Shown here: positions 3,335-33,830 of the stretch, one piece after another | Layout: each line of letters opens with the position of its first letter | How positions within the stretch are numbered: position 1 is the first letter of the stretch | Source of the DNA: a virus | Reading direction: 5' to 3' (one strand) | Length of the DNA: 34,023 nucleotides | IMG/VR virus record: IMGVR_UViG_3300037264_002118 | Coordinates: 1 to 34,023 of that record | The notes under the pieces: generated by a model | Databases searched by the model: none | Seen by the model: the letters and a program-made list of their open reading frames with translations, nothing else | What the model was told of the DNA's origin: nothing | Position numbers and translations under genes: made by a program

Positions 3335-3876
3335 GCGCTAATGTACTGCATAGCGCCAATAGGCCAGACTGGCATACTCCAGCATGGCTGGTCGAGATGG
3401 CGCGATCTGTACTCGGCACTATCGATCTAGATCCCGCGAGCGATGAGCGGGCGCAACAGGTCGTGCAGGCTGGGCGTTGGCTCGGAATCGATAATGCGGA
3501 CGAATGGCCTCACGATTGTAGCGTGTTCCTGAATCCGCCTGGGGGGCTAGTCTGCCGGAAATCGCAAGCGCTGCTATTCTGGAATGCGCTCGCCTGGTAT
3601 CGCATGCGCTTGCGCCTGCGACATGCGATATTCGTAGCATTCAATGCGGAGTTGTTGCGCTCGTCGCAAATCGGAACCGGCCCATCGATAGCCGATCCCG
3701 CGTTCGTGATCTGCGCGCCGCGGCAGAGGATCGCGTTCTGCGACCCGGTGACCGGACAGCGGAGCAAGAGCCCGACGCACCACAACCTGATCGTGTACGT
3801 GCCCGGCATGGTGGATCAGTCCGCGTTGTTCGCGCAGGTCTTCGGCACGCTTGGCGCCATTTTGCGCGGCGTGTGA
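3331..3876 (+). CDS. Phage Dam-type DNA N6-adenine methyltransferase
   Basis: 181 residues, the usual size for the phage Dam family (PF05869). Hallmarks in order are W14-x-T16-P17, the IDLDPAS motif (31-37) that follows the AdoMet-binding strand, and the catalytic motif at NPPGG (68-72). Family members often have NPPY; Gly replaces the aromatic residue here, though I recall related phage proteins with NPPGG, so loss of activity cannot be concluded. The likely role is adenine methylation of phage DNA for protection from host restriction or for regulation. It overlaps the nuclease gene by four bases. Confidence 0.85.
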   Translation: MSANVLHSANRPDWHTPAWLVEMARSVLGTIDLDPASDERAQQVVQAGRWLGIDNADEWPHDCSVFLNPPGGLVCRKSQALLFWNALAWYRMRLRLRHAIFVAFNAELLRSSQIGTGPSIADPAFVICAPRQRIAFCDPVTGQRSKSPTHHNLIVYVPGMVDQSALFAQVFGTLGAILRGV

Positions 3877-3883
3877 TTTATTC

Positions 3884-3911
3884 TTGACAATCTGTAGCGT
3901 ATAGCTATCGT
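3884..3911 (+). promoter_or_regulatory. Candidate promoter for the gene at 3957
   Basis: TTGACA (3884-3889), 16 bases, then TATCGT (3906-3911). It lies 45 bases before the ATG at 3957, which has a good ribosome site (AAGGAG). The position immediately after the stop of the methyltransferase gene suggests a new transcription unit starts here. Confidence 0.5.
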
Positions 3912-3956
3912 CGACAAACGCACGGCAATCGTGCTCACCCCTACCAAGGAGTCAAA

Positions 3957-4463
3957 ATGTCGAGACGGAAGAAGGGCAGTGATGCGGCGGAAACGCCAGC
4001 TAAGGCTGGCCGGAAGATCATTAGCGATAGCCCGATCAATCGTGCGGCCCGTGAGAGGCGCAAGCGCGCGGCGGCTACGCCGCATCGCGACCGCGTGATC
4101 GCTGGCATGGCGCGATGCGTCCGATCTATCGAGCTACTGCGCCTGGCGCGGTGTGATGATGTGCTGGGGGACGATTTTGCGGCGGCCCGTGCTGCGCTGG
4201 ACACGCGGCTTACCGAAGTTGCCGATGGCCTGGATATGTTGCCCGGAGATTTCCGCTTGCCGCGGCAGAGCGCAGGCCGCAAGCCGTCGCTAGATGTTGG
4301 CGATAGCTGCGTCTTCAAGGCGCGATTCGCGGAGCGCTGGCGCGAAATGTTCGGCGACGGGCCGCACGAGGTCATGGAGCAGGCCAACGGTTACGTTTTC
4401 TTGACCACGGCCAAGGGCTCTCTCCTCGGCATCCCGCGGGCTCAGTTGTCCGCCGCCCTGTAG
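3957..4463 (+). CDS. Hypothetical basic protein (168 aa)
   Basis: Starts with ATG after AAGGAG and has its own candidate promoter. The first 60 residues are rich in Lys and Arg (MSRRKKGSD…, ARERRKRAAA) and look disordered. A helical middle follows, then a C-terminal part (about 110-168) with alternating strands (GDSCVFKARFAERW…, NGYVFLTTAKGSLLGIP) that could form a small SH3-like beta barrel. I do not recognise a family. The basic tail and early-region position would suit a DNA- or RNA-binding role, but nothing shows it. Confidence 0.6.
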   Translation: MSRRKKGSDAAETPAKAGRKIISDSPINRAARERRKRAAATPHRDRVIAGMARCVRSIELLRLARCDDVLGDDFAAARAALDTRLTEVADGLDMLPGDFRLPRQSAGRKPSLDVGDSCVFKARFAERWREMFGDGPHEVMEQANGYVFLTTAKGSLLGIPRAQLSAAL

Positions 4464-4472
4464 GCTTCGCCT

Positions 4473-4493
4473 CCCCCGCGTTTGCGGGCCTTT
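4473..4493 (+). terminator. Possible weak terminator
   Basis: A five-base-pair stem (CCCGC at 4475-4479, GCGGG at 4484-4488, loop GTTT) is followed by CCTTT. It lies ten bases after the stop of the 168-residue gene. The stem is short and the T-run poor, so termination would be inefficient. Confidence 0.25.
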
Positions 4494-4527
4494 GCTCCCT
4501 CCTTATCTTCAGCTATCCTCGGCTCTC

Positions 4528-5193
4528 ATGAGCCACGACCCACTACACAATATTCGTACTCGAGTCACAGCATGGGTCGCGGCTGCTCGCGACGCGTTAG
4601 GCGCCGCGAAGTTTTTGCTCGTGGATACCGCCGACGGCACGCTGCTAACGAAAGACGCCGCCAGCGTTCGTCTGCCTGAGCTTGTCGACGTAGATTACGC
4701 TGCGTTGAATGTCGCCGCCGCTCAGACGTTCCTGCTAATGATCGATAGAGACAACGGCTCTGGCGCGTACAAACATGTAGCGGGCGATGGGATCAAGGTC
4801 GCCACCATTGATGGCGTGCTGATCAAAAGTAGCGCGTCTGCCATGTGGCTATCTCTGTTTGGGATCATCCTGGCTATCGATGGCACGAATGCTACGATTG
4901 CATACCTGCGATTCGGATCGGTGTTAGCGCAGGACAACGCATTTGCGCAAACATCGTACAGCTACTCCGCGTTGCCAGCTCGCATAGATTGCACAGTAGC
5001 TGGCGGTGGTTTTACAAAGATTGCGGCTGGCTTTGTAGAGGTCACAGCGTTGGTCAATACTGGCATCACGCTGCCTAACGTGCTAAGTGCGCCGACTACT
5101 CCGGCCGTCGGAGACGCCGTGATCAAGCTCGTGCGCGCGTCAGGATCTGGCACAGCCATTATCCACTACTCTGTACTGTATGAGGTTAGCTAA
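4528..5193 (+). CDS. Hypothetical beta-rich protein (221 aa)
   Basis: I chose the ATG at 4528 (MSHDPLHNIRTRV); no clear ribosome site precedes it. A short N-terminal helical part is followed by about 180 residues dominated by Val, Ala, Gly, Thr and Ser in alternating patterns, suggesting a beta-sandwich or barrel. The segment around 105-130 (MWLSLFGIILAIDG) is hydrophobic but reads like buried strands rather than a clear membrane helix. Its last base overlaps the next ATG (TAATG). The composition resembles virion decoration or fibre-tip proteins, yet it lies outside the virion operon. Function unknown. Confidence 0.6.
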   Translation: MSHDPLHNIRTRVTAWVAAARDALGAAKFLLVDTADGTLLTKDAASVRLPELVDVDYAALNVAAAQTFLLMIDRDNGSGAYKHVAGDGIKVATIDGVLIKSSASAMWLSLFGIILAIDGTNATIAYLRFGSVLAQDNAFAQTSYSYSALPARIDCTVAGGGFTKIAAGFVEVTALVNTGITLPNVLSAPTTPAVGDAVIKLVRASGSGTAIIHYSVLYEVS

Positions 5194-5573
5194 TGGCAGT
5201 GGCGAACGCGTCTGACTATGCTCCGACTCGGGGCACACAGATTTTGCAGACAGGGTATGGCGTAGTGGCGGGCTCTAGCTCCGACGACATCACGTACACA
5301 ATTCCGGCCGGCAAGATGCTTACGGTGACCGTGTTCCGTGGCGGTTCGTCTGGCATAGGCAGTTGTGAGGTTGTACTACTGCGACGGTCACAGGGTGTCG
5401 AATCTGTAATAGAGTCTGCGTATGGCGGCGCTGTGGCAGGTAATTTCGCCGGCGCGTTTAATTATGCAGTCGCGTTTGTAGGGGACGATGAATTGCAGAT
5501 CGTGCTGCGCCGAATCAACGCAGCGTTGACCCCGCAATCGATCTTCGCTAAGTGGGCTGGCGTTCTGGAGTAG
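5193..5573 (+). CDS. Hypothetical beta-rich protein (126 aa)
   Basis: Translationally coupled to the preceding gene through TAATG. The protein is almost entirely predicted strand (TYTIPAGKMLTVTVFRGG…, LQIVLRRINAAL), with no signal peptide or membrane helix. The phrase YTIPAGKMLTVTVF resembles beta-sandwich domains of phage structural proteins. Its 3' end overlaps the end of the convergent primase-helicase gene by 26 bases, so the two transcripts would be complementary there. With its partner it may be a virion accessory pair or a moron; function unknown. Confidence 0.6.
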   Translation: MAVANASDYAPTRGTQILQTGYGVVAGSSSDDITYTIPAGKMLTVTVFRGGSSGIGSCEVVLLRRSQGVESVIESAYGGAVAGNFAGAFNYAVAFVGDDELQIVLRRINAALTPQSIFAKWAGVLE

Positions 5574-7983
5574 CGTCGATAGTTGCTGCAGTATCTACCA
5601 GCCATCGGCCCTTATCATCTCTCCGCAACGCCCGCCCATCTAGCACAGCGTCACGTAGCCTCCGCAGGATCCATCCTAATTTGCGCACGTCGACGTCCGC
5701 CCCTTTCTCCTGCGCTTCGTGGCAAATAGCGGCCCACAGCTCCGCGCGTTCGTCCGTGTCTTTGATTTGCGCCCCCGCAAAACCGCGCTTTGGTTGCAAC
5801 GTCGTTAGCAGATCGTTGCCTAGGATAGGCCCGTGCGCAGCGATCCAGTCTAGCATACGTCTGTGCATGTCATGACCAGCGTCTCGGTCTATCAATTGCC
5901 TGCGCGATTCAGCCGGGTCCGGCCTGCCTAGCCAGGTCAGTACCTGCCGCACCGGAGTCCATCCTGCGACTGTCGCCCACGGCTTCACTTGCCCTGGCCT
6001 ACCGGCGGTCAGCCAGGCGCGCCACACGGTCAATAGAGAGCCGCAAAGCTGCAGGCGGTGGCGTTGCACGTAATCGAACAACTGCGGTTCTGCGAGGTCC
6101 GTACGCTCCTCTGGTGCATCGGTTGGAGGGGTTAGTCGCAAGAATAGCGCCCTGGGAGCCAAGTCGCCACCGATCGATAGCCCGTTGCCTGTGATGACTA
6201 CGATCGGATGAAATGGCACATCCCACGGCTGTTGTGTAAAATACCGGCGTTCGGTAATGGAGCCTTTTGTCAATGCGCCGTCGAGTGCCGCTGATTCCAG
6301 CACGGCGCCGTTTCTAACGTTGTCGAATAGCACAAAGCGTCCGTCGGCGGCGCATCGGTTATGTAGCTTCGTATTCATCCTATCATCATCACTCGACCAG
6401 CGATCGCCGTCTGCCCGTCTACCGCGCTGTATGATCGAAATGCAATCCGCCAACATCGACTTGCCGGACTGTTTCTTTGTAGCGTCGAATACGCCGATTG
6501 GCGCTGGGCCGTCGAGAAAATCTCTCGCTACGGCGGTTAGTAGGTATGCTGTGTACACTGTTCTTGACACACGGCCGTCCCACGGGAATTGCCGAAACAC
6601 GTGCTCCACTGCCGCGAGTGCCGACACAGCATCATCGCGTGTTGGCGATGCAGGGATCTCTACGTGCTCCGACAAATACACCGATCTAGTGGCCCTGTCG
6701 TATCCTGGCGTAGCTAGTATGGTGCCGTCGCTGCGCATGGCAGGAGCGGATATTGCGCCGCGTACAGTGCGCACGCTAGGTAGCACAGGCATGGACAATA
6801 TCTCCTCTGCGACCCATTGCGGCACTACGGTACGTTCCCAATATCCGTTATCGCCTTCCTTCTTAGGCGCTTTCCACGCGAAGCAATGCGCGAAGTGCGT
6901 AAGCAGTGAGTGCAGCCTAGGTCGCTCCATCGGTGCAAACTCATCGTCCGGAGTAAGCTCGCACAGTCGACCGCCGTATTCGTAGACATAGTCCGCACGC
7001 TCGGCCAATATTGATAGCAGCCTGGCATTGGTAATTGTGTGGTCGCGGTATATCTTAGCCGAGGACGCGATAGCGCACCCAACGGCATTGCGTCTATATA
7101 GGTCGATGTTCGATAGTATCTCCTTGTCTATGACGTCGATGCGCTCCGGAGGGTTGCACGTAGCGTTGTAGTCCATGACTATGGACCTCGTCCTGTCGAT
7201 CGATAGGGCGTAGTCTCGACAGTACTGTGCTAGTCGAAATAGTGCGCCGTGCCGTTCGCCAGCCTGCGCAGGCGCTAGCGTGCGGGCATGCTCGCTTACT
7301 GCCCGTTCCATCGTGACATGATCGAATTGCGCTAGTTCGTGGTCGGTAGGGGCTCGTATCGGTTTATCTGGGTCGGCAAGATCGAATTGATATGGGTCAA
7401 GCCACGTGCCGTCTGGGCATAGCTGTGTCAGGTACCATCGCGACGTGTCGGCTATAGCCGGTGTGTAGTACCCGTGAGACGGCGAGCTAGTCTGCCGATC
7501 CAACGTACCGCCTAGGTGCATGTTGACTATGCGCCATAGCTGCACGTAATGCTGCGCTGCTACCGGCCTAGCTAGCGGTATTAGAATTCGTCCGCGATCC
7601 GCAGCGCCTGACGGCGAGGGGAATGCACAGGCAGTGATGCCTAATTGCCGAATGCGCGCGATCGATGCAGCTAGCCCGCCGCATAGTTTGTGCTGGGCGT
7701 GCGCATTGAATCTGCACAGTCTACCGGCTTTGCATGCTGCGCATGGATCGATATCCAGGAATAGCACCGATACATCTAGGACGTCCGCATTGCAGCGTCG
7801 CCCGCCCGGGCGCAGGTGGGCGCCGTGCCAGAACGACAATCGGTCTTTGCCGCCATCGGGCAGTATCTCAGGATGCGCGCAGTACGTTGTGAGCGTCGAC
7901 CACGAGAGCGTTTCCGATACGCCTTGGTCGGTGGCATAACGATTGGGATAGACAGTTATGGTTAGCTGGGGTAGATTGGGCAC
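5548..7983 (-). CDS. Bifunctional primase-helicase (AEP-like plus P-loop ATPase)
   Basis: 811 residues from GTG at 7983 (GGGAG just upstream). An open frame continues upstream but reads across the terminator and opposite the next gene, so it was not used. The N-terminal third resembles archaeo-eukaryotic-type primases: VLFLDIDP with D77 and D79 as metal ligands, a cysteine cluster directly after (C-X2-C-X5-C and further Cys/His) that may bind zinc, then FPSPSGAADRGRILIPL. The C-terminal half is a phage/plasmid replicative ATPase: Walker A-like DATKKQSGKSM (about 500-508), Walker B-like FVLFDNV (about 549), then VITGNG and RALFLRL as sensor and arginine motifs. Expected role: unwinding and priming at the phage origin. 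It is the only minus-strand gene in the middle of the window. Confidence 0.8.
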   Translation of the reverse strand: MPNLPQLTITVYPNRYATDQGVSETLSWSTLTTYCAHPEILPDGGKDRLSFWHGAHLRPGGRRCNADVLDVSVLFLDIDPCAACKAGRLCRFNAHAQHKLCGGLAASIARIRQLGITACAFPSPSGAADRGRILIPLARPVAAQHYVQLWRIVNMHLGGTLDRQTSSPSHGYYTPAIADTSRWYLTQLCPDGTWLDPYQFDLADPDKPIRAPTDHELAQFDHVTMERAVSEHARTLAPAQAGERHGALFRLAQYCRDYALSIDRTRSIVMDYNATCNPPERIDVIDKEILSNIDLYRRNAVGCAIASSAKIYRDHTITNARLLSILAERADYVYEYGGRLCELTPDDEFAPMERPRLHSLLTHFAHCFAWKAPKKEGDNGYWERTVVPQWVAEEILSMPVLPSVRTVRGAISAPAMRSDGTILATPGYDRATRSVYLSEHVEIPASPTRDDAVSALAAVEHVFRQFPWDGRVSRTVYTAYLLTAVARDFLDGPAPIGVFDATKKQSGKSMLADCISIIQRGRRADGDRWSSDDDRMNTKLHNRCAADGRFVLFDNVRNGAVLESAALDGALTKGSITERRYFTQQPWDVPFHPIVVITGNGLSIGGDLAPRALFLRLTPPTDAPEERTDLAEPQLFDYVQRHRLQLCGSLLTVWRAWLTAGRPGQVKPWATVAGWTPVRQVLTWLGRPDPAESRRQLIDRDAGHDMHRRMLDWIAAHGPILGNDLLTTLQPKRGFAGAQIKDTDERAELWAAICHEAQEKGADVDVRKLGWILRRLRDAVLDGRALRRDDKGRWLVDTAATIDATPERQPT

Positions 7984-8010
7984 GATTCTCCCTGGGGTAG
8001 GGGTGAGTCT

Positions 8011-8050
8011 AGGGCCCTGACATGCGAGTGTCAGGGCCCTTTTAATTTTC
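8011..8050 (+). terminator. Strong rho-independent terminator before the virion operon
   Basis: A perfect 12-base-pair stem (AGGGCCCTGACA 8011-8022; TGTCAGGGCCCT 8029-8040) with a six-base loop, followed by TTTAATTTT. The T-run works only for rightward transcription. No plus-strand gene ends nearby, so it would stop transcripts running rightward from 3957-5573 antisense to the primase-helicase, insulating the virion promoter. Confidence 0.85.
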
Positions 8051-8051
8051 C

Positions 8052-8081
8052 TTGACGCACGCACAACTACATGCGTCACTA
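8052..8081 (+). promoter_or_regulatory. Possible late promoter and operator-like inverted repeat
   Basis: TTGACG (8052-8057) lies directly after the terminator and 33 bases before the first virion gene. No good -10 is present at 16-18 bases. GACGCA (8054-8059) and TGCGTC (8072-8077) form an inverted repeat separated by 12 bases, a possible site for a late activator or repressor. Position supports a late promoter; the sequence support is weak. Confidence 0.3.
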
Positions 8082-8089
8082 AGGGAGCA

Positions 8090-9163
8090 ATGACTCTACC
8101 GCATCCGGAACAGACCGGGCAAGCCCTGGTCGCATTGGGGGCGACGCTGGACCATGCAGCCTCTAGGACCACTGCCAATGGGTACCTGGTAGTGCCTGCG
8201 GTCCTGGCGCGTACCGGGATCGTTGACCTCGGGCCTGGCGAGCGGCACAGTTTCCCCCCCGAGGCGCTGTTCTCTTCGGCGGCGCTGTCCGATTGGGCGG
8301 CACAGGTCGTCACGGACGAACATCCGACCTTGCCCGACGGACGCACTATCCCTGTCACGTCCGCAAATGCGCGTAGCGTAGCCGTCGGATTTGTGTCCGG
8401 TCCTGTAGCTGCTACGTCGGACGGGCATTTGCTAGCATCATTGACGATTACTGATCAGCAATCAATCGATGCAATTCGATCCGGCAAGCGCGAATTGTCG
8501 ATAGGTGCGTTCCTTTCGCGTGCGCCGTCGAAGAAAAAGACGCACGATTGGGATGTGACCGCAGTTGAGCCTAACCACGTTGCGCTCGTGCATCGAGGGG
8601 CTTGCGGCCCGTCGTGCCGAGTGTCTCTAACTACACCCGTCGTAACCGCAGGAGCGCCCGCAATGGCATGCACATGTGGATCCGATACCAAGGTCATCGA
8701 CCTCGAGACGCGCCTGGCCGCTGCGGATGCGGCGCGCGCGACTGCGGACGCGGCTATGCAGACGGAGCGGGCTCGCACAGAGACTGCGCTGGCGCAGCTT
8801 GCCGCACGCGACGCGACCGAAGGGCAGCGTATCGAGGCCAGGATTGCGCTACTGTCGCGAGCGCGCGCCGTGCTGGGTGCCGAGTACGCTCCACCGGCCG
8901 GCGCTTCCGATCTGGTCGTGATGTCCGCAGTAGTCGGCAAGATTCTGCCGGGCATGGCCAAGAGCGTCTCAGACGCTGCGACCGCCGGTAACGCCGCGTA
9001 CGTCGAGGCGAGCTACGCTGCCGCCATGGCGGTTCCGCTGGCGCCTGCCAGCACAGCCGCTGCGCAGGTGTCGGCGGCGGCTGGCGCGTCTCCTACGGCC
9101 CCTCCTCAGACGCTGGAGAGCATGCGCCTGGCGCTTATCGCTGCACAGGCACGACGCGCCTAA
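8090..9163 (+). CDS. DUF2213 capsid maturation protease/scaffold
   Basis: 357 residues, ATG preceded by AAGGGAG. Residues 1-175 match the DUF2213 pattern (GYLVVPAVLARTGI at 31-44). Candidate His-Ser-His catalytic residues, as in prohead proteases, are H78 (DEHP), S136 (ELSIG) and H162 (PNHVALVHRG). Residues about 200-265 are an Ala/Glu/Arg-rich coiled coil, followed by an Ala-rich low-complexity tail: the usual layout of a protease fused to its scaffold. A cysteine cluster (GACGPSC…CTCGS) sits at the junction. It should direct capsid assembly and then be removed. The gene opens the virion operon. The protease role is known for the group; the catalytic residues here are my reading. Confidence 0.8.
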   Translation: MTLPHPEQTGQALVALGATLDHAASRTTANGYLVVPAVLARTGIVDLGPGERHSFPPEALFSSAALSDWAAQVVTDEHPTLPDGRTIPVTSANARSVAVGFVSGPVAATSDGHLLASLTITDQQSIDAIRSGKRELSIGAFLSRAPSKKKTHDWDVTAVEPNHVALVHRGACGPSCRVSLTTPVVTAGAPAMACTCGSDTKVIDLETRLAAADAARATADAAMQTERARTETALAQLAARDATEGQRIEARIALLSRARAVLGAEYAPPAGASDLVVMSAVVGKILPGMAKSVSDAATAGNAAYVEASYAAAMAVPLAPASTAAAQVSAAAGASPTAPPQTLESMRLALIAAQARRA

Positions 9164-24102: not shown

Positions 24103-26259
24103 ATGAGCCGCATCACCAGGGGCTTTGTCGGTACCGGGCTATTCGCACCGGGCGTAGCACCGTACACTAGCGAGTTTGGCGGGCCGCCGTTGATCGCTGC
24201 TTACTCCGTCGACAACGGCGTGCCAGGCGATGTGATCACGGTGAGCGGCGATAACCTAACCGCAGTCACTGCGGTTACGGTGTGCGGCGTTGCTGCCATG
24301 TTCGCACCGTCGGGCGCCGACCTACTGGTGACGGTTCCGGAAGGCGTTTGCCAGGTCGGCGTGATCTCGGTAACCGCTCCGCTCGGGAGCGACGACGGGC
24401 CGGCGTTCACGCTGCTAGTATTCCGCTACCGCTTCGACGATCCCGCAGTGGCTGCGCTTCCGCCCGGGCTGGTGCAGACCTACGGCGCTGCACTGCCCTC
24501 GCGCGCGGTAGCGCTCACGGCAGCTACCGCAGCGATCGTGACAGGCAACGGGCCTACGTTCGATTGGCGCCAAGTGCGCGGGCTGTGGCTGGCCAATCTC
24601 GAAACTACTAACGAGGCGCCTCGCAACATGGAGGCGCTATTTGTGGGGTCCATCGGATTCGTCAATTCCGAGGTAATCACAGACGGGTATGGAGTCGGCC
24701 CAGATGGCGCGGCCGGAAGCGCCACACAAGTCGATCCCAATGGCGGTTTTTGGGTCGATCTGCCCGACGGAACATTTACCCCGGTCGGTCGCATGTGCGG
24801 CGTTACGATCTGGGTTAAGGACGATCCCCTCGACCCGCCAGCCAATGGCCCTGGCTCTGTCTCTCCGTCGTGCAACGTCAACCAAGCGCGGTCATATCTA
24901 TCAGGCGGCGCATGGCGGCGCATCGTGATTGGCGATGCGGCACGCGCGAAGACCCGCGCATGCATGCGCCTGTTCTGCTCTGGCCAACCGCCAGCTAGTG
25001 CCCCTGCCGTCGACTACTATAGCGGTGGCACAGTGTCGTTCTTTGCAGGCAATGGGTCATTCTTGTTCGCACTAATCGGTGCGTACATGTCCAGGTTCTC
25101 CGACCTACCGCCAGCGTTTGACAATCCAAACACAGCAACTGTGCTCCCGTCGCTGCACACTGCGGTGTCTGGCGCGTTTGCTTCGCAGATCATGGGTACC
25201 GTGCTGAATGGCGATGGTACGATCGATGTTCAGATCGATCTAGTAGACTCCCGTGTCAAGAGCCTTGATGGATTCACAAAGGATGATGCGAACAACCAAA
25301 AGCTCCGCGTCATCACAATGGCTACGCCCGACGGGGAATGGTCCATCGACATGCAGAAGAAGGGGTGGCTGGCCAAGGTCGCTGGAGTAACCGCCGGTCT
25401 CACGAGCGGAGTCGTGGGCCTTGGCATTCTCGGCGGAGACCAAGTGATACGGTTTCGCATGCGCAACGACCCTACCGCCAATCGCACAATCGTCCGCGCG
25501 TACGTTGCCGGATGCGTCGACATCAACGCCGTTGCCGACGTGGCCAGCGTCGGTGCTAACTCCGCGCCTACTGCGATCCATCCTGGCAGTGACGCGGCAA
25601 ACGCCGAACCTATGGAACGTATCGTACCGCGCATGCAGCGTCTGCCCGCTGGCACCGATATTGACCCCGAGGAGTTTGTCGTCATTGGAGACTCTACCAG
25701 CGGCACGTTTAACAGCGTGCCTCCGACCGGGGGCTACATCTACACGGCGCAAGAATCGCTCGATCGTGCAGGCATCGCCAACTACGCGCTTGCCGGCGGT
25801 GGCGTGGTCAATCAGCGCGCCCTATGGGATGCCGGTCCCCACAAGGGCAAAGACGCCACCGTCAAGGCCATCATATTCGACGGGCTTGGCCATAACGATA
25901 TCGTCAGTGTCGGAGATTTCGATATCATAGAGCCGTTCTACTCGGCATGGCTGGCGAACATTCGTACCACCAACCCGACGGCAAAGATCGTATGGGTCAC
26001 CATGAATCCCAGCAACGCCACGCTAAGCGCACCGCTGCAAGCGGAGCATGCGCTTATGCAGACTGCGATCCTAGGAGGCGGTCCCGCGCCGTTTGACTCC
26101 GATGCCACGGTGGACGCTCGCGATGACCTCGACACAGATAGCAGCGGCACGATCGACACGGCGTTTTCTCCGGACAGTCTGCACCCATACGAGGTCACTA
26201 AGCGCACGATCAAGGGCCCACTCATCCGCGCCGCGTTGGTGTCGCTCGGATTGCTGTAG
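24103..26259 (+). CDS. Tail fibre-type protein with TIG domain and SGNH esterase
   Basis: 718 residues. After a short N-terminus, residues about 30-107 form an IPT/TIG immunoglobulin-like domain (GVPGDVITVSGDNLTAVTAVTVCGVAA…, VTVPEG). The long middle (about 110-510) is beta-rich and unrecognised. The C-terminus is an SGNH/GDSL hydrolase: block I GDST with S531, a Gly-rich block II (ALAGGGVVNQRA), block III GLGHND with N598, and block V DSLH with D691 and H694. All four catalytic blocks are intact. Such enzymes remove acetyl or acyl groups, so this protein may deacetylate a surface polysaccharide receptor. The next gene starts seven bases later. Confidence 0.8.
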   Translation: MSRITRGFVGTGLFAPGVAPYTSEFGGPPLIAAYSVDNGVPGDVITVSGDNLTAVTAVTVCGVAAMFAPSGADLLVTVPEGVCQVGVISVTAPLGSDDGPAFTLLVFRYRFDDPAVAALPPGLVQTYGAALPSRAVALTAATAAIVTGNGPTFDWRQVRGLWLANLETTNEAPRNMEALFVGSIGFVNSEVITDGYGVGPDGAAGSATQVDPNGGFWVDLPDGTFTPVGRMCGVTIWVKDDPLDPPANGPGSVSPSCNVNQARSYLSGGAWRRIVIGDAARAKTRACMRLFCSGQPPASAPAVDYYSGGTVSFFAGNGSFLFALIGAYMSRFSDLPPAFDNPNTATVLPSLHTAVSGAFASQIMGTVLNGDGTIDVQIDLVDSRVKSLDGFTKDDANNQKLRVITMATPDGEWSIDMQKKGWLAKVAGVTAGLTSGVVGLGILGGDQVIRFRMRNDPTANRTIVRAYVAGCVDINAVADVASVGANSAPTAIHPGSDAANAEPMERIVPRMQRLPAGTDIDPEEFVVIGDSTSGTFNSVPPTGGYIYTAQESLDRAGIANYALAGGGVVNQRALWDAGPHKGKDATVKAIIFDGLGHNDIVSVGDFDIIEPFYSAWLANIRTTNPTAKIVWVTMNPSNATLSAPLQAEHALMQTAILGGGPAPFDSDATVDARDDLDTDSSGTIDTAFSPDSLHPYEVTKRTIKGPLIRAALVSLGLL

Positions 26260-31819: not shown

Positions 31820-32144
31820 CCGATTGCTAGCCGTCGCGCTTGCGCTAACTACGCTGGCACTACTGGCCATTCTGTTCCTGGGAATCGGGTGTGCTGCATC
31901 GGTGGACTGTCCGCTAGGCACATACCCGCGCAAGGCGTCGGTCAGTACACAGACCACGGGATCGGTGTCGGTACTGACCGAAACCGGCAACGTCGAACGC
32001 GCGACCGCGACCGGCTACGAATGCGCGCCAATCTGCCCGCGAGGTTCGCTGACACGACTGCACGAAGGAGAGAAGGGGCGACGGTTAGAGTGTGTGCCAA
32101 TCGATGGGCGAGACGGAGGAAGCGGGCGCGACGCGCGGCGCTAG
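31809..32144 (+). CDS. Lipoprotein-like small protein (o-spanin candidate)
   Basis: 111 residues from ATG 31809. The first 27 residues are a signal sequence (LLAVALALTTLALLAILFLGIGC) ending in a Cys that could be lipidated, though the box LGIGC is not a perfect lipobox. Four further Cys lie in the mature part (VDCPLG, YECAPICPRG, LECVP). Short phage lipoproteins near the end of a late operon are often outer-membrane spanins. It is the last gene of the operon and overlaps the convergent VRR-NUC gene by four bases; no terminator is visible between them. Confidence 0.55.
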   Translation: MTRDRLLAVALALTTLALLAILFLGIGCAASVDCPLGTYPRKASVSTQTTGSVSVLTETGNVERATATGYECAPICPRGSLTRLHEGEKGRRLECVPIDGRDGGSGRDARR

Positions 32145-32623
32145 TACCCCAGCTTGGTCAACCATGCGATGGCGTCGCGCGCGCCGTACGCCACCTTGAC
32201 GCGCCAGCCCAGCGTCTCTAGCTGTTGCAGCCACAAGCGCTGGTGCGGCGTAGCGCCGCGGGCTCTAGCGCCTGGTGCGTGGGCGCGTTTCAGCTCCACT
32301 GCCGCCCCTCGAGGGGCGGCAGGCGCTGGCGTAAAAACCAGATAGTCCGGCGCTCCCTTGGCCAGGCCCTCCCGGCGGGCCTTGGCAGCCGCTTGCGCCG
32401 TCCGCACGCCTTCATTGGGGACATGCAGGAACACTAGCCCGGTCCGACTGCGAAGCCAGTGGGCCAGGTCTTGCGCCTCGTGTGACTCGGTTCGCGCCCG
32501 CAAGCGGAGCGGCAGCGCATCCGCCTTTTCGGTCGGCCAATAGCGTGCGTTGCGCTGCCCGCGCAATGCCGGCAAGGGCTCAGTAGGCGGGTCGTGCATT
32601 CCAGACAGTTCAGGTCGTTTCAT
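32141..32623 (-). CDS. VRR-NUC domain nuclease
   Basis: 160 residues. The C-terminal hundred residues form a VRR-NUC PD-(D/E)XK fold: HVPNEGVRT, then KGAPDYLVF (metal-binding Asp), AVELKR (catalytic E-x-K), and TPHQRLWLQQLETLGWRVKVAYG with the family's Gln and helix. Phage members are structure-specific or nicking nucleases and are often encoded with replication genes. The start overlaps the clamp gene by 14 bases, consistent with joint expression. A 24-base perfect palindrome lies inside the gene between the Asp and E-x-K motifs. Confidence 0.85.
   Translation of the reverse strand: MKRPELSGMHDPPTEPLPALRGQRNARYWPTEKADALPLRLRARTESHEAQDLAHWLRSRTGLVFLHVPNEGVRTAQAAAKARREGLAKGAPDYLVFTPAPAAPRGAAVELKRAHAPGARARGATPHQRLWLQQLETLGWRVKVAYGARDAIAWLTKLGY
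32299..32322. repeat. Perfect 24-bp palindrome inside the VRR-NUC gene
   Basis: Twelve-base arms (CTGCCGCCCCTC and its complement) meet without a spacer around a CTCGAG centre. It encodes part of the Pro/Arg/Gly loop between two catalytic strands. It could form a stable mRNA hairpin or be a protein-binding site; no T-run follows it, so it is not a rho-independent terminator. Confidence 0.8.
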
Positions 32624-33497
32624 CGGCGCTCCTTCTCACTCTGGTACGCCAGGCAAATGCATTTAGGCGGCACGGCATGGTGATGACGGTGATGGACCGA
32701 TCCGCCTTCTCCGCTGCGTCGGCGAATAGGATAGGGCTGTACTCGTCGGTGAAATGCGCATGCACCGTGCGCCCCGGCATCACGGCTAGCGCGTCCAGGA
32801 GGTACCGCCCATTCGCGCCGATGGTCAGACGCGCAGCGCCCGGGCATGCTAGGTCGCACGGTACCGACACGGTGTCACATCCCTCAGCGTCGACGCGGAC
32901 CCCATTGGGCGCCAGCGACAGGCGCAGCATTTCGCGCTGCGCCGCGAAGCGCTGGCGCAGCTGGCGCAGCTCGCGCCGCTCAGCGCCCGTCTTGCACGCG
33001 CCAATCTCTCCGGCGAGCTGCGACGCGAGCACCGCTTTTTTCTGGGCGAGCACAGCTTTCAGCGCCGCGGTCAAGCTCTTTTTGTCGACGGCTGCGCAGA
33101 ATCTCGCCACCGCTGGCGGCATGACCGCTCGCCAGTCGGGGAATTTCGCCTCGATGCCGGGGCCGCTCGCCAGCACCGCGGTGCTGGCGTAGACCGCCAC
33201 CGGGCCCTCAGCGGTCGGCGCCGCGAGGCGTACCTCAGTAGCCGCGTGCACGGTCGCGAGCCCGACGCAGAGGGCGGTCAGGGTATCGGCCGGCAGCAGC
33301 CCAAGGCCGTGCGGCGCGTCGATCGCCAGCTCGCCGCTGCGCTCCGCAAGCGCGAGCCGGCGGCCGTCGCTGGCGATGAGCAGCGTGCGGCCGTCGCGCA
33401 CCTCTACGGCCGCGCCCGTCATGTGTACTCGCGTTTCGTCGCGCGAGACGAACGGCGCTACCTGGAGCAGCATGGCGCGCAGACTTCCGGCGGTCAT
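32610..33497 (-). CDS. Phage sliding clamp (beta-clamp type, apparently two domains)
   Basis: 295 residues with an excellent ribosome site (AGGAGGTG) before ATG 33497. Residues 1-127 match domain 2 of bacterial DnaN: LRAMLLQVAPFVSRDETRVHMTG, ASDGRRLA (42-49; ATDGHRLA in DnaN) and KFPDWRAVMP (118-127; FPDYRRVLP in DnaN). Residues about 135-278 match domain 3: IGANGRYLLDALAVM and the closing VITMPCRL (VVMPMRL in DnaN). No equivalent of domain 1 precedes them. A charged helical insertion lies at about 140-195 and a 17-residue basic tail follows the canonical end. Bacterial clamps are about 370 residues, three domains and dimeric. It should tether a polymerase or nuclease to DNA. Confidence 0.85.
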   Translation of the reverse strand: MTAGSLRAMLLQVAPFVSRDETRVHMTGAAVEVRDGRTLLIASDGRRLALAERSGELAIDAPHGLGLLPADTLTALCVGLATVHAATEVRLAAPTAEGPVAVYASTAVLASGPGIEAKFPDWRAVMPPAVARFCAAVDKKSLTAALKAVLAQKKAVLASQLAGEIGACKTGAERRELRQLRQRFAAQREMLRLSLAPNGVRVDAEGCDTVSVPCDLACPGAARLTIGANGRYLLDALAVMPGRTVHAHFTDEYSPILFADAAEKADRSITVITMPCRLNAFAWRTRVRRSADETT

Positions 33498-33830
33498 TGG
33501 GCACCTCCTGCGCGCTGTCGCAGGTCCGCTAGCGCGTCGGCAGTCGACGCGTAAAAATCTGGCACGTAGCCGGCCGACGCCCAGTAGATCAGCGCTCCGG
33601 CCACGGCTGGCCCGAGCCGCGCCTCTAGTGCGTAGCCAGCCGATCCTGCCGTACGTCCAACTGCGCTAGTGTGATCATGCCTGCCCCTCCTCCAATGCTC
33701 GACGCATGTACCATGACCAGGTACGCTTCTGACCTCCGTCAACCTCCGCAGGGTTGCGGACCTCAAACCCCATCGCCCGTTGCCACCTGAGCACCCACGA
33801 CGTCTGGTTTATCGCGCAATGACCGTCTCC
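33494..33830 (-). pseudogene. Degenerate DUF4406 (deoxyribosyltransferase-like) remnant
   Basis: Three successive reading frames together spell most of a DUF4406 protein. Frame one reads RAMGFEVRNPAEVDGGQKRTWSWYMRRALEEGQA (stop at 33675-33677). Frame two begins MITLAQLDVRQ (from 33678, stop at 33625). Frame three reads GSAGYALEARLGPAVAGALIYW to a stop overlapping the clamp ATG. The family has the same order: (R/L)G(F/Y)EVxNPAE, W-x-x-M-R, a hydrophobic strand, then SxGAxxE. The N-terminal nucleotide-binding strand (YIAGPM) is absent, as the preceding gene ends where it should be. Two frameshifts and a missing start suggest a dead gene, unless the indels are sequencing errors. An alternative is three tiny coupled ORFs. 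Confidence 0.5.

Follow-up and report, generated by a model that had tools for sequence, protein, structure and literature searches.

A phage derivative of the bacterial beta clamp made up of domains 2 and 3, without domain 1

Sliding clamps are taken to be six-domain rings, and a gene near one end of a viral DNA record raises the question of what a bacterial-type clamp chain without domain 1 could be. The record (IMG/VR IMGVR_UViG_3300037264_002118, 34,023 nucleotides, referred to as a whole as the window) belongs to a myovirus-like phage that encodes a major head protein, a tail sheath, a baseplate and a terminase, and also a PD-(D/E)XK nuclease. The features of the clamp locus are listed in Table 1.

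Table 1. Features of the clamp locus, in window coordinates
Feature	Position	Strand	Remarks
VRR-NUC nuclease, 160 aa, overlapping downstream	32141..32623	(-)	Pfam VRR_NUC E=4e-6; PHROG 824 E=1e-25
Beta-clamp relative without domain 1, gene	32610..33497	(-)	295 aa; profile matches, AlphaFold2 and Foldseek
C-terminal tail past the usual end, codons 279-295	32613..32663	(-)	Adjoins the pocket; low model confidence
Complete clamp domain 3, codons 133-278, ending MPCRL	32664..33101	(-)	
Lengthened first helix of domain 3 and added second helix, codons 139-187	32937..33083	(-)	About 31 extra residues; net charge of the stretch +8
Clamp domain 2 (DnaN ~129-250), codons 1-129, ASDGRRLA and FPDW	33111..33497	(-)	
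Upstream 90-codon ORF, stop overlapping the clamp ATG	33494..33766	(-)	Weak PHROG 31265 match; not domain 1
Shine-Dalgarno sequence AGGAGGT	33503..33509	(-)	5 nt upstream of the clamp ATG

The clamp ORF runs from an ATG at 33497–33495 to a stop codon at 32612–32610 on the minus strand, and no in-frame ATG, GTG or TTG occurs upstream of this ATG, which itself overlaps the stop codon of the ORF before it. The pattern AGGAGGT-N(3–8)-ATG occurs at a single site in the 34-kb window (0.22 expected), which is that of the clamp gene. The GC content of the gene by codon position is of the coding type, and its neighbors overlap it on both sides.

Profile comparison revealed where the homology begins. 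The DnaN profile TIGR00663 (E=2e-16) aligned residues 4–278 of the protein with profile positions 132–367 of 367, at a score of 59.9 bits that lies below the curated full-length cut-off of 137.65; the best profile match, PHROG 947 (E=1.4e-19), started from position 132 of 368. Therefore, the homology extends from domain 2 to the usual end of the clamp. Pfam matched domain 3 at E=3e-6; its match to domain 2 (E=3e-4) falls short of the cut-off. The initial annotation, made from the sequence alone, had described DnaN domains 2 and 3 with nothing before them, and the three sets of profiles bear this out; the motifs read ASDGRRLA, FPDW and MPCRL. These results show that the protein is a phage derivative of the bacterial beta clamp, which has lost domain 1 and kept domains 2 and 3.

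The domain-1 family PF00712 matched neither the clamp protein nor any other part of the window, and a domain-1 HMM made in this analysis from 61 phage clamps, run at maximum sensitivity without filters, found no match in any frame of the window. A wrong start or a frameshifted domain 1 was rejected on these grounds. The window is a linear fragment that stops 526 bp upstream of the clamp gene, so that a separate domain-1 gene beyond the end of the record is possible. It is very improbable that domain 1 exists and was lost by frameshift, wrong start or contig end: the metagenomic origin of the fragment, its nearby end and a possible frameshift within the upstream ORF speak for such an artefact, but the domain-1 signal is absent in every frame, the Shine-Dalgarno sequence and the start–stop overlap are placed exactly at the start of domain 2, and complete phage genomes commonly carry clamps without domain 1. 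The upstream ORF matches PHROG 31265 only from residue 34, and another frame reads MITLAQLDVRQDRL just before this point; the ORF may thus contain a frameshift or begin elsewhere.

The structure of the protein was predicted by AlphaFold2 with 66 relatives (pLDDT 87.9, pTM 0.86). The model contains exactly two complete clamp domains (residues 1–129 and 133–278) and no third one, as the initial annotation had supposed, and a Foldseek search with it matched bacterial beta clamps (E of about 1e-16). The charged helical insertion and the basic tail that had been read from the sequence were also recovered: the former comprises a 28-residue helix (residues 139–166) and a second helix (residues 171–187) with a net charge of +8, and the latter has 17 residues and a net charge of +2, with low confidence in the model. 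The helical stretch is 47 residues long, compared with 16 in E. coli and 14–17 in 61 three-domain relatives from IMG/VR, none of which has the insert; the three-domain phage clamps of PHROG 947, the nearest named relatives among them, all include domain 1 and are 353–385 residues long. The insertion site is the first helix of domain 3, which in E. coli carries the dimer-contact residues I272 and L273. Replacement of both residues by alanine makes beta monomeric (PMC4041429).

The binding pocket and the DNA-facing surface were compared with E. coli DnaN by means of 18 pocket positions listed in PMC11139829 and an E. coli sequence of which the length (366) and the identity of 36 landmark residues were checked. 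The pocket of the window clamp is identical to that of E. coli at 11 of the 18 positions, compared with 36 of 215 elsewhere (p=8e-5), a comparison in which the pocket partly anchored the family. In the three-domain phage clamps, the mean pocket identity is higher (90%). Residues L155, T172 and V360 are conservatively replaced in the window clamp, and the positions of H175 (to R), R246 (to A), V344 and M364 are changed; as the pocket is less well kept than in these relatives, with H175 and R246 replaced, it may fail to recognize standard motifs. Of 7 basic DNA-contact positions, only 1 is kept, whereas the three-domain relatives keep 4.9 of 7 on average and only 1 of 61 has a count as low. In E. 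coli, R197 and K198 line the pore and R152 is required for viability (PMC5042465); the corresponding residues of the window clamp are A, D and R, respectively. The basic insert might substitute for the lost basic residues of the channel. At the dimer interface, the I272/L273 pair corresponds to A/Q, where the insert begins, and E300/E301/E303/E304 are replaced by V/S/P/C. The pocket is thus the best kept part of the protein, and the interface helix is rebuilt.

Scanning IMG/VR and the GTDB genomes directly with the window protein gave no relative; therefore, relatives were gathered by alignment queries. The nearest named ones, from Microcystis phage Mae-JY04, Aurantimonas phage AmM-1 and Paracoccus phage Psul1, are three-domain clamps with 26–33% identity. 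Three IMG/VR scans, one of them seeded with a short clamp so that the counts depend on seeding, yielded 163 distinct relatives: 93 three-domain clamps, 60 short clamps consisting of domain 2 and the C-terminal half of domain 3 (58 identified by script, L157 and L162 by inspection), 9 proteins cut by contig ends, and 1 protein (L072) with domains 2 and 3. The L072 protein (positions 3746–4720 of IMGVR_UViG_3300048598_000494) has complete domains 2 and 3 behind an unrelated start of ~80 residues without a match to any domain-1 model, and possibly represents a second architecture without domain 1. An apparent 190-residue N-terminal domain in L009 was dropped from consideration: the arginine-rich start is probably an extension of the ORF, and the protein is probably another short clamp. 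L004 (CAKLQH020000026.1, "Acinetobacter phage MD-2021a") holds rpmH-dnaA-dnaN-recF-gyrB and is bacterial chromosomal DNA.

The short clamps cover HMM positions 137–252 and then 317–364, and in two named phages the Pfam domain 3 match is confined to positions 68–121 and 73–121. A short clamp was modeled with a pLDDT of 93, and the top matches of its fold search were beta clamps. All 36 aligned members have the equivalents of R152, Y154, L155, G157, P242 and R246, and nearly all retain MPxR. Domain 1 was encoded in none of 20 short-clamp records, compared with all 4 control records with three-domain clamps. A single short-clamp query retrieved 204–224 phage records, most of them covering at least 80% of the query and a few of them three-domain clamps. 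The short clamps constitute PHROG 3007, which PHROGs labels "RusA-like Holliday junction resolvase", but no RusA match (Pfam) was found in the window protein or in the short-clamp members, which match clamp families. The label has spread into phage records, although members of PHROG 3007 and 12598 (for example, L168:3058–3573, L169:2986–3504 and L170:2998–3579) consist of clamp domain 2 and half of domain 3; names given by depositors to some of the short clamps include "DNA Pol III b subunit fragment" (Bcep781-15) and "possible moron gene product". Loss of domain 1 is common among phages, and the window clamp falls in a wider, mostly unnoticed and mislabeled set of phage clamps without this domain. 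The initial annotation had asked whether related phages share the domain loss; the loss itself is shared, but no other protein of the IMG/VR sample combines, as the window protein does, a chain that begins directly at domain 2 with a complete domain 3. The PHROG 3007 profile matches the window protein (E=3.8e-5). An AU test of the kinship of the window protein with the short clamps gave nearly equal values (p=0.53 against 0.51), and domain-2 trees, in which the window protein forms a long branch, leave it unplaced.

Comparison with known clamps revealed that (i) the window clamp shares with DnaN the sequence of domains 2 and 3, the predicted fold, part of the pocket and the final MPxRL, but lacks domain 1 and most of the basic DNA-facing residues, and has an insert at the dimer-interface helix and a 17-residue tail; (ii) it resembles the PHROG 3007 short clamps (BcepC6B gp31, Sodalis phage SO-1 gp07 and Bcep781-15) in the absence of domain 1, in FPDW and in an acidic residue at the position of K198, but these proteins have about 170–260 residues and only the C-terminal half of domain 3, whereas the window clamp has a complete domain 3 and the insert; and (iii) it has two clamp domains per chain like PCNA and T4 gp45, but carries the sequence of DnaN domains 2 and 3 and has no Pfam match to those families at E up to 10.

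The gene for the VRR-NUC protein is the probable operon partner of the clamp gene. The clamp gene faces the upstream structural genes; an orientation against the head genes, with a nuclease gene close by, is also frequent among the short clamps, as in BcepC6B, Bcep781, AB4P2 and KpV2811. In AB4P2 and KpV2811 (L172 and L173), the short clamp belongs to a small cassette, opposite to the adjoining genes, with a ParB-like protein and an HNH nuclease or endonuclease VII, and the KpV2811 cassette also has a methylase. A stable link with VRR-NUC was rejected: this nuclease occurs in 17 of 36 short-clamp records but adjoins the clamp in only about 2. BLASTP gave no alignment between the nucleases of the window and BcepC6B. 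No convincing clamp-binding motif was found in the neighboring proteins; "ALPLRL" in the VRR-NUC protein was discarded, as the leading Gln is missing. None of 24 records, the window among them, yielded a phage Pol III alpha, and polymerase A is present in only some of them; the absence of Pol III alpha suggests that the partner would be the host polymerase or another phage enzyme. Elsewhere in the window, a 936-codon primase/polymerase-like ORF (5548–8358, minus strand) lies opposite to the structural genes; its start overlaps the head protease ORF (8090–9163), and the true start is probably further in. Among the tail genes, residues 527–695 of a 718-codon ORF (24103–26259, plus strand) weakly match GDSL lipase/acylhydrolase (E=1e-4), and judging from this match the product is perhaps a virion deacetylase.

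How could such a chain work? The initial annotation had considered that the two-domain subunit would trimerise, as in PCNA, or join a host subunit. In a homotrimer, three such subunits would close a six-domain ring and serve a phage or host polymerase, with domain 3 docking on domain 2 of the next subunit, perhaps via the helical hairpin. The arithmetic fits, as two complete clamp domains per chain times three make six, and the rebuilt interface helix and the basic insert could provide a new subunit interface as well as new contacts to DNA. A precedent for the idea is E. coli beta*, which Skaliter, Livneh and colleagues (J Biol Chem, 1996) reportedly described as a UV-inducible C-terminal part of beta, said to have two domains and clamp activity and to have been proposed as trimeric. 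By these accounts beta*, like the window clamp, is a two-domain DnaN product without domain 1; it differs in that it arises from the host gene through internal initiation and has the sequence of beta, whereas the window clamp is the product of an independent, diverged phage gene with an insert. In addition, beta domains 2 and 3 align with the two domains of PCNA (PMC8357120). Against the homotrimer, the conserved DNA-facing basic positions are mostly gone, the rebuilt interface helix speaks against a simple trimer, no relative of the same architecture points to selection for a trimer, and no Pfam PCNA or gp45 match was found. In related phage clamps, moreover, domain 1 is missing along with the interface-bearing half of domain 3, which cannot give such a ring, and loss of domain 1 in phages therefore does not imply a rebuilt six-domain ring. 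On this balance, we regard the homotrimer as rather unlikely, and the fuller proposal, in which the basic hairpin would serve as both interface and DNA contact and the phage would have taken an independent route from dimeric to trimeric clamps, as unlikely.

Two other readings account for parts of the same evidence. The long branch, the eroded pocket and DNA contacts and the lack of a close relative in IMG/VR or GTDB would suit a truncated, drifting leftover without function. This is quite unlikely, given an intact 295-codon frame with a perfect Shine-Dalgarno sequence, a GC pattern across codon positions typical of coding DNA, neighbors that overlap the gene at both ends and a confident two-domain model, and given that short clamps are conserved and widespread. 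A still less probable reading holds that the protein joins the host beta clamp in a hetero-ring or as a poison subunit: contact between its domain 3 and domain 1 of host beta is conceivable in principle, and the wrong subunit would leave the ring open. However, the residues that contact the host subunit are replaced at both the I272/L273 and the E300/E301/E303/E304 sites, and two plus three domains cannot close the usual six-domain ring. The mismatch at the interface is only moderately telling, because three-domain phage relatives diverge at these sites too (mean identity 0.15).

The explanation that we tentatively favor is that the window clamp is a pocket protein descended from a clamp, which captures those replication or repair proteins that bind clamps and does not act as a standard closed ring around DNA. 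The single conserved basic DNA-contact position, the rebuilt interface helix and the better kept pocket count against a conventional ring. The reading is favored by the short clamps, which keep pocket residues without domain 1 or the N-terminal half of domain 3, and by the gene context, which resembles theirs in the orientation against the head genes and in the adjoining nuclease. It is weakened by the pocket being worse kept than that of the three-domain relatives, by the basic insert and the complete domain 3, which a protein acting only by its pocket would not need, by the neighboring proteins, which show no clear clamp-binding motif, and by the AU test, which gives no preference for kinship with the short clamps.

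We infer that such a protein would act through the pocket between domains 2 and 3, which would bind proteins carrying a clamp motif; candidate partners are the host clamp-loader delta subunit, the polymerase III alpha subunit, a translesion polymerase or a phage protein, which could be either recruited or titrated. The basic helical hairpin and the tail may make a different contact to DNA or to the partner. The affinity of delta for monomeric beta is about 50 times that for the dimer (PMC11139829); a ring-less clamp would therefore be a good sink for delta, and by this preference the host clamp loader could be taken over or blocked. As a pocket protein, the window clamp would represent the less reduced stage of a trend whose end point is the short clamps of PHROG 3007, in which little beyond the pocket is left.

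Phages thus repeatedly carry clamp relatives that are unable to form the usual dimer: a single one has exactly two domains, whereas about one and a half are present in many. The Holliday junction resolvase label in PHROGs hides the question that the short clamps pose. Small soluble proteins, some of them from phages of laboratory E. coli strains, make two readings testable: either phages build rings in another way, or they use a freed clamp pocket to control replication proteins.
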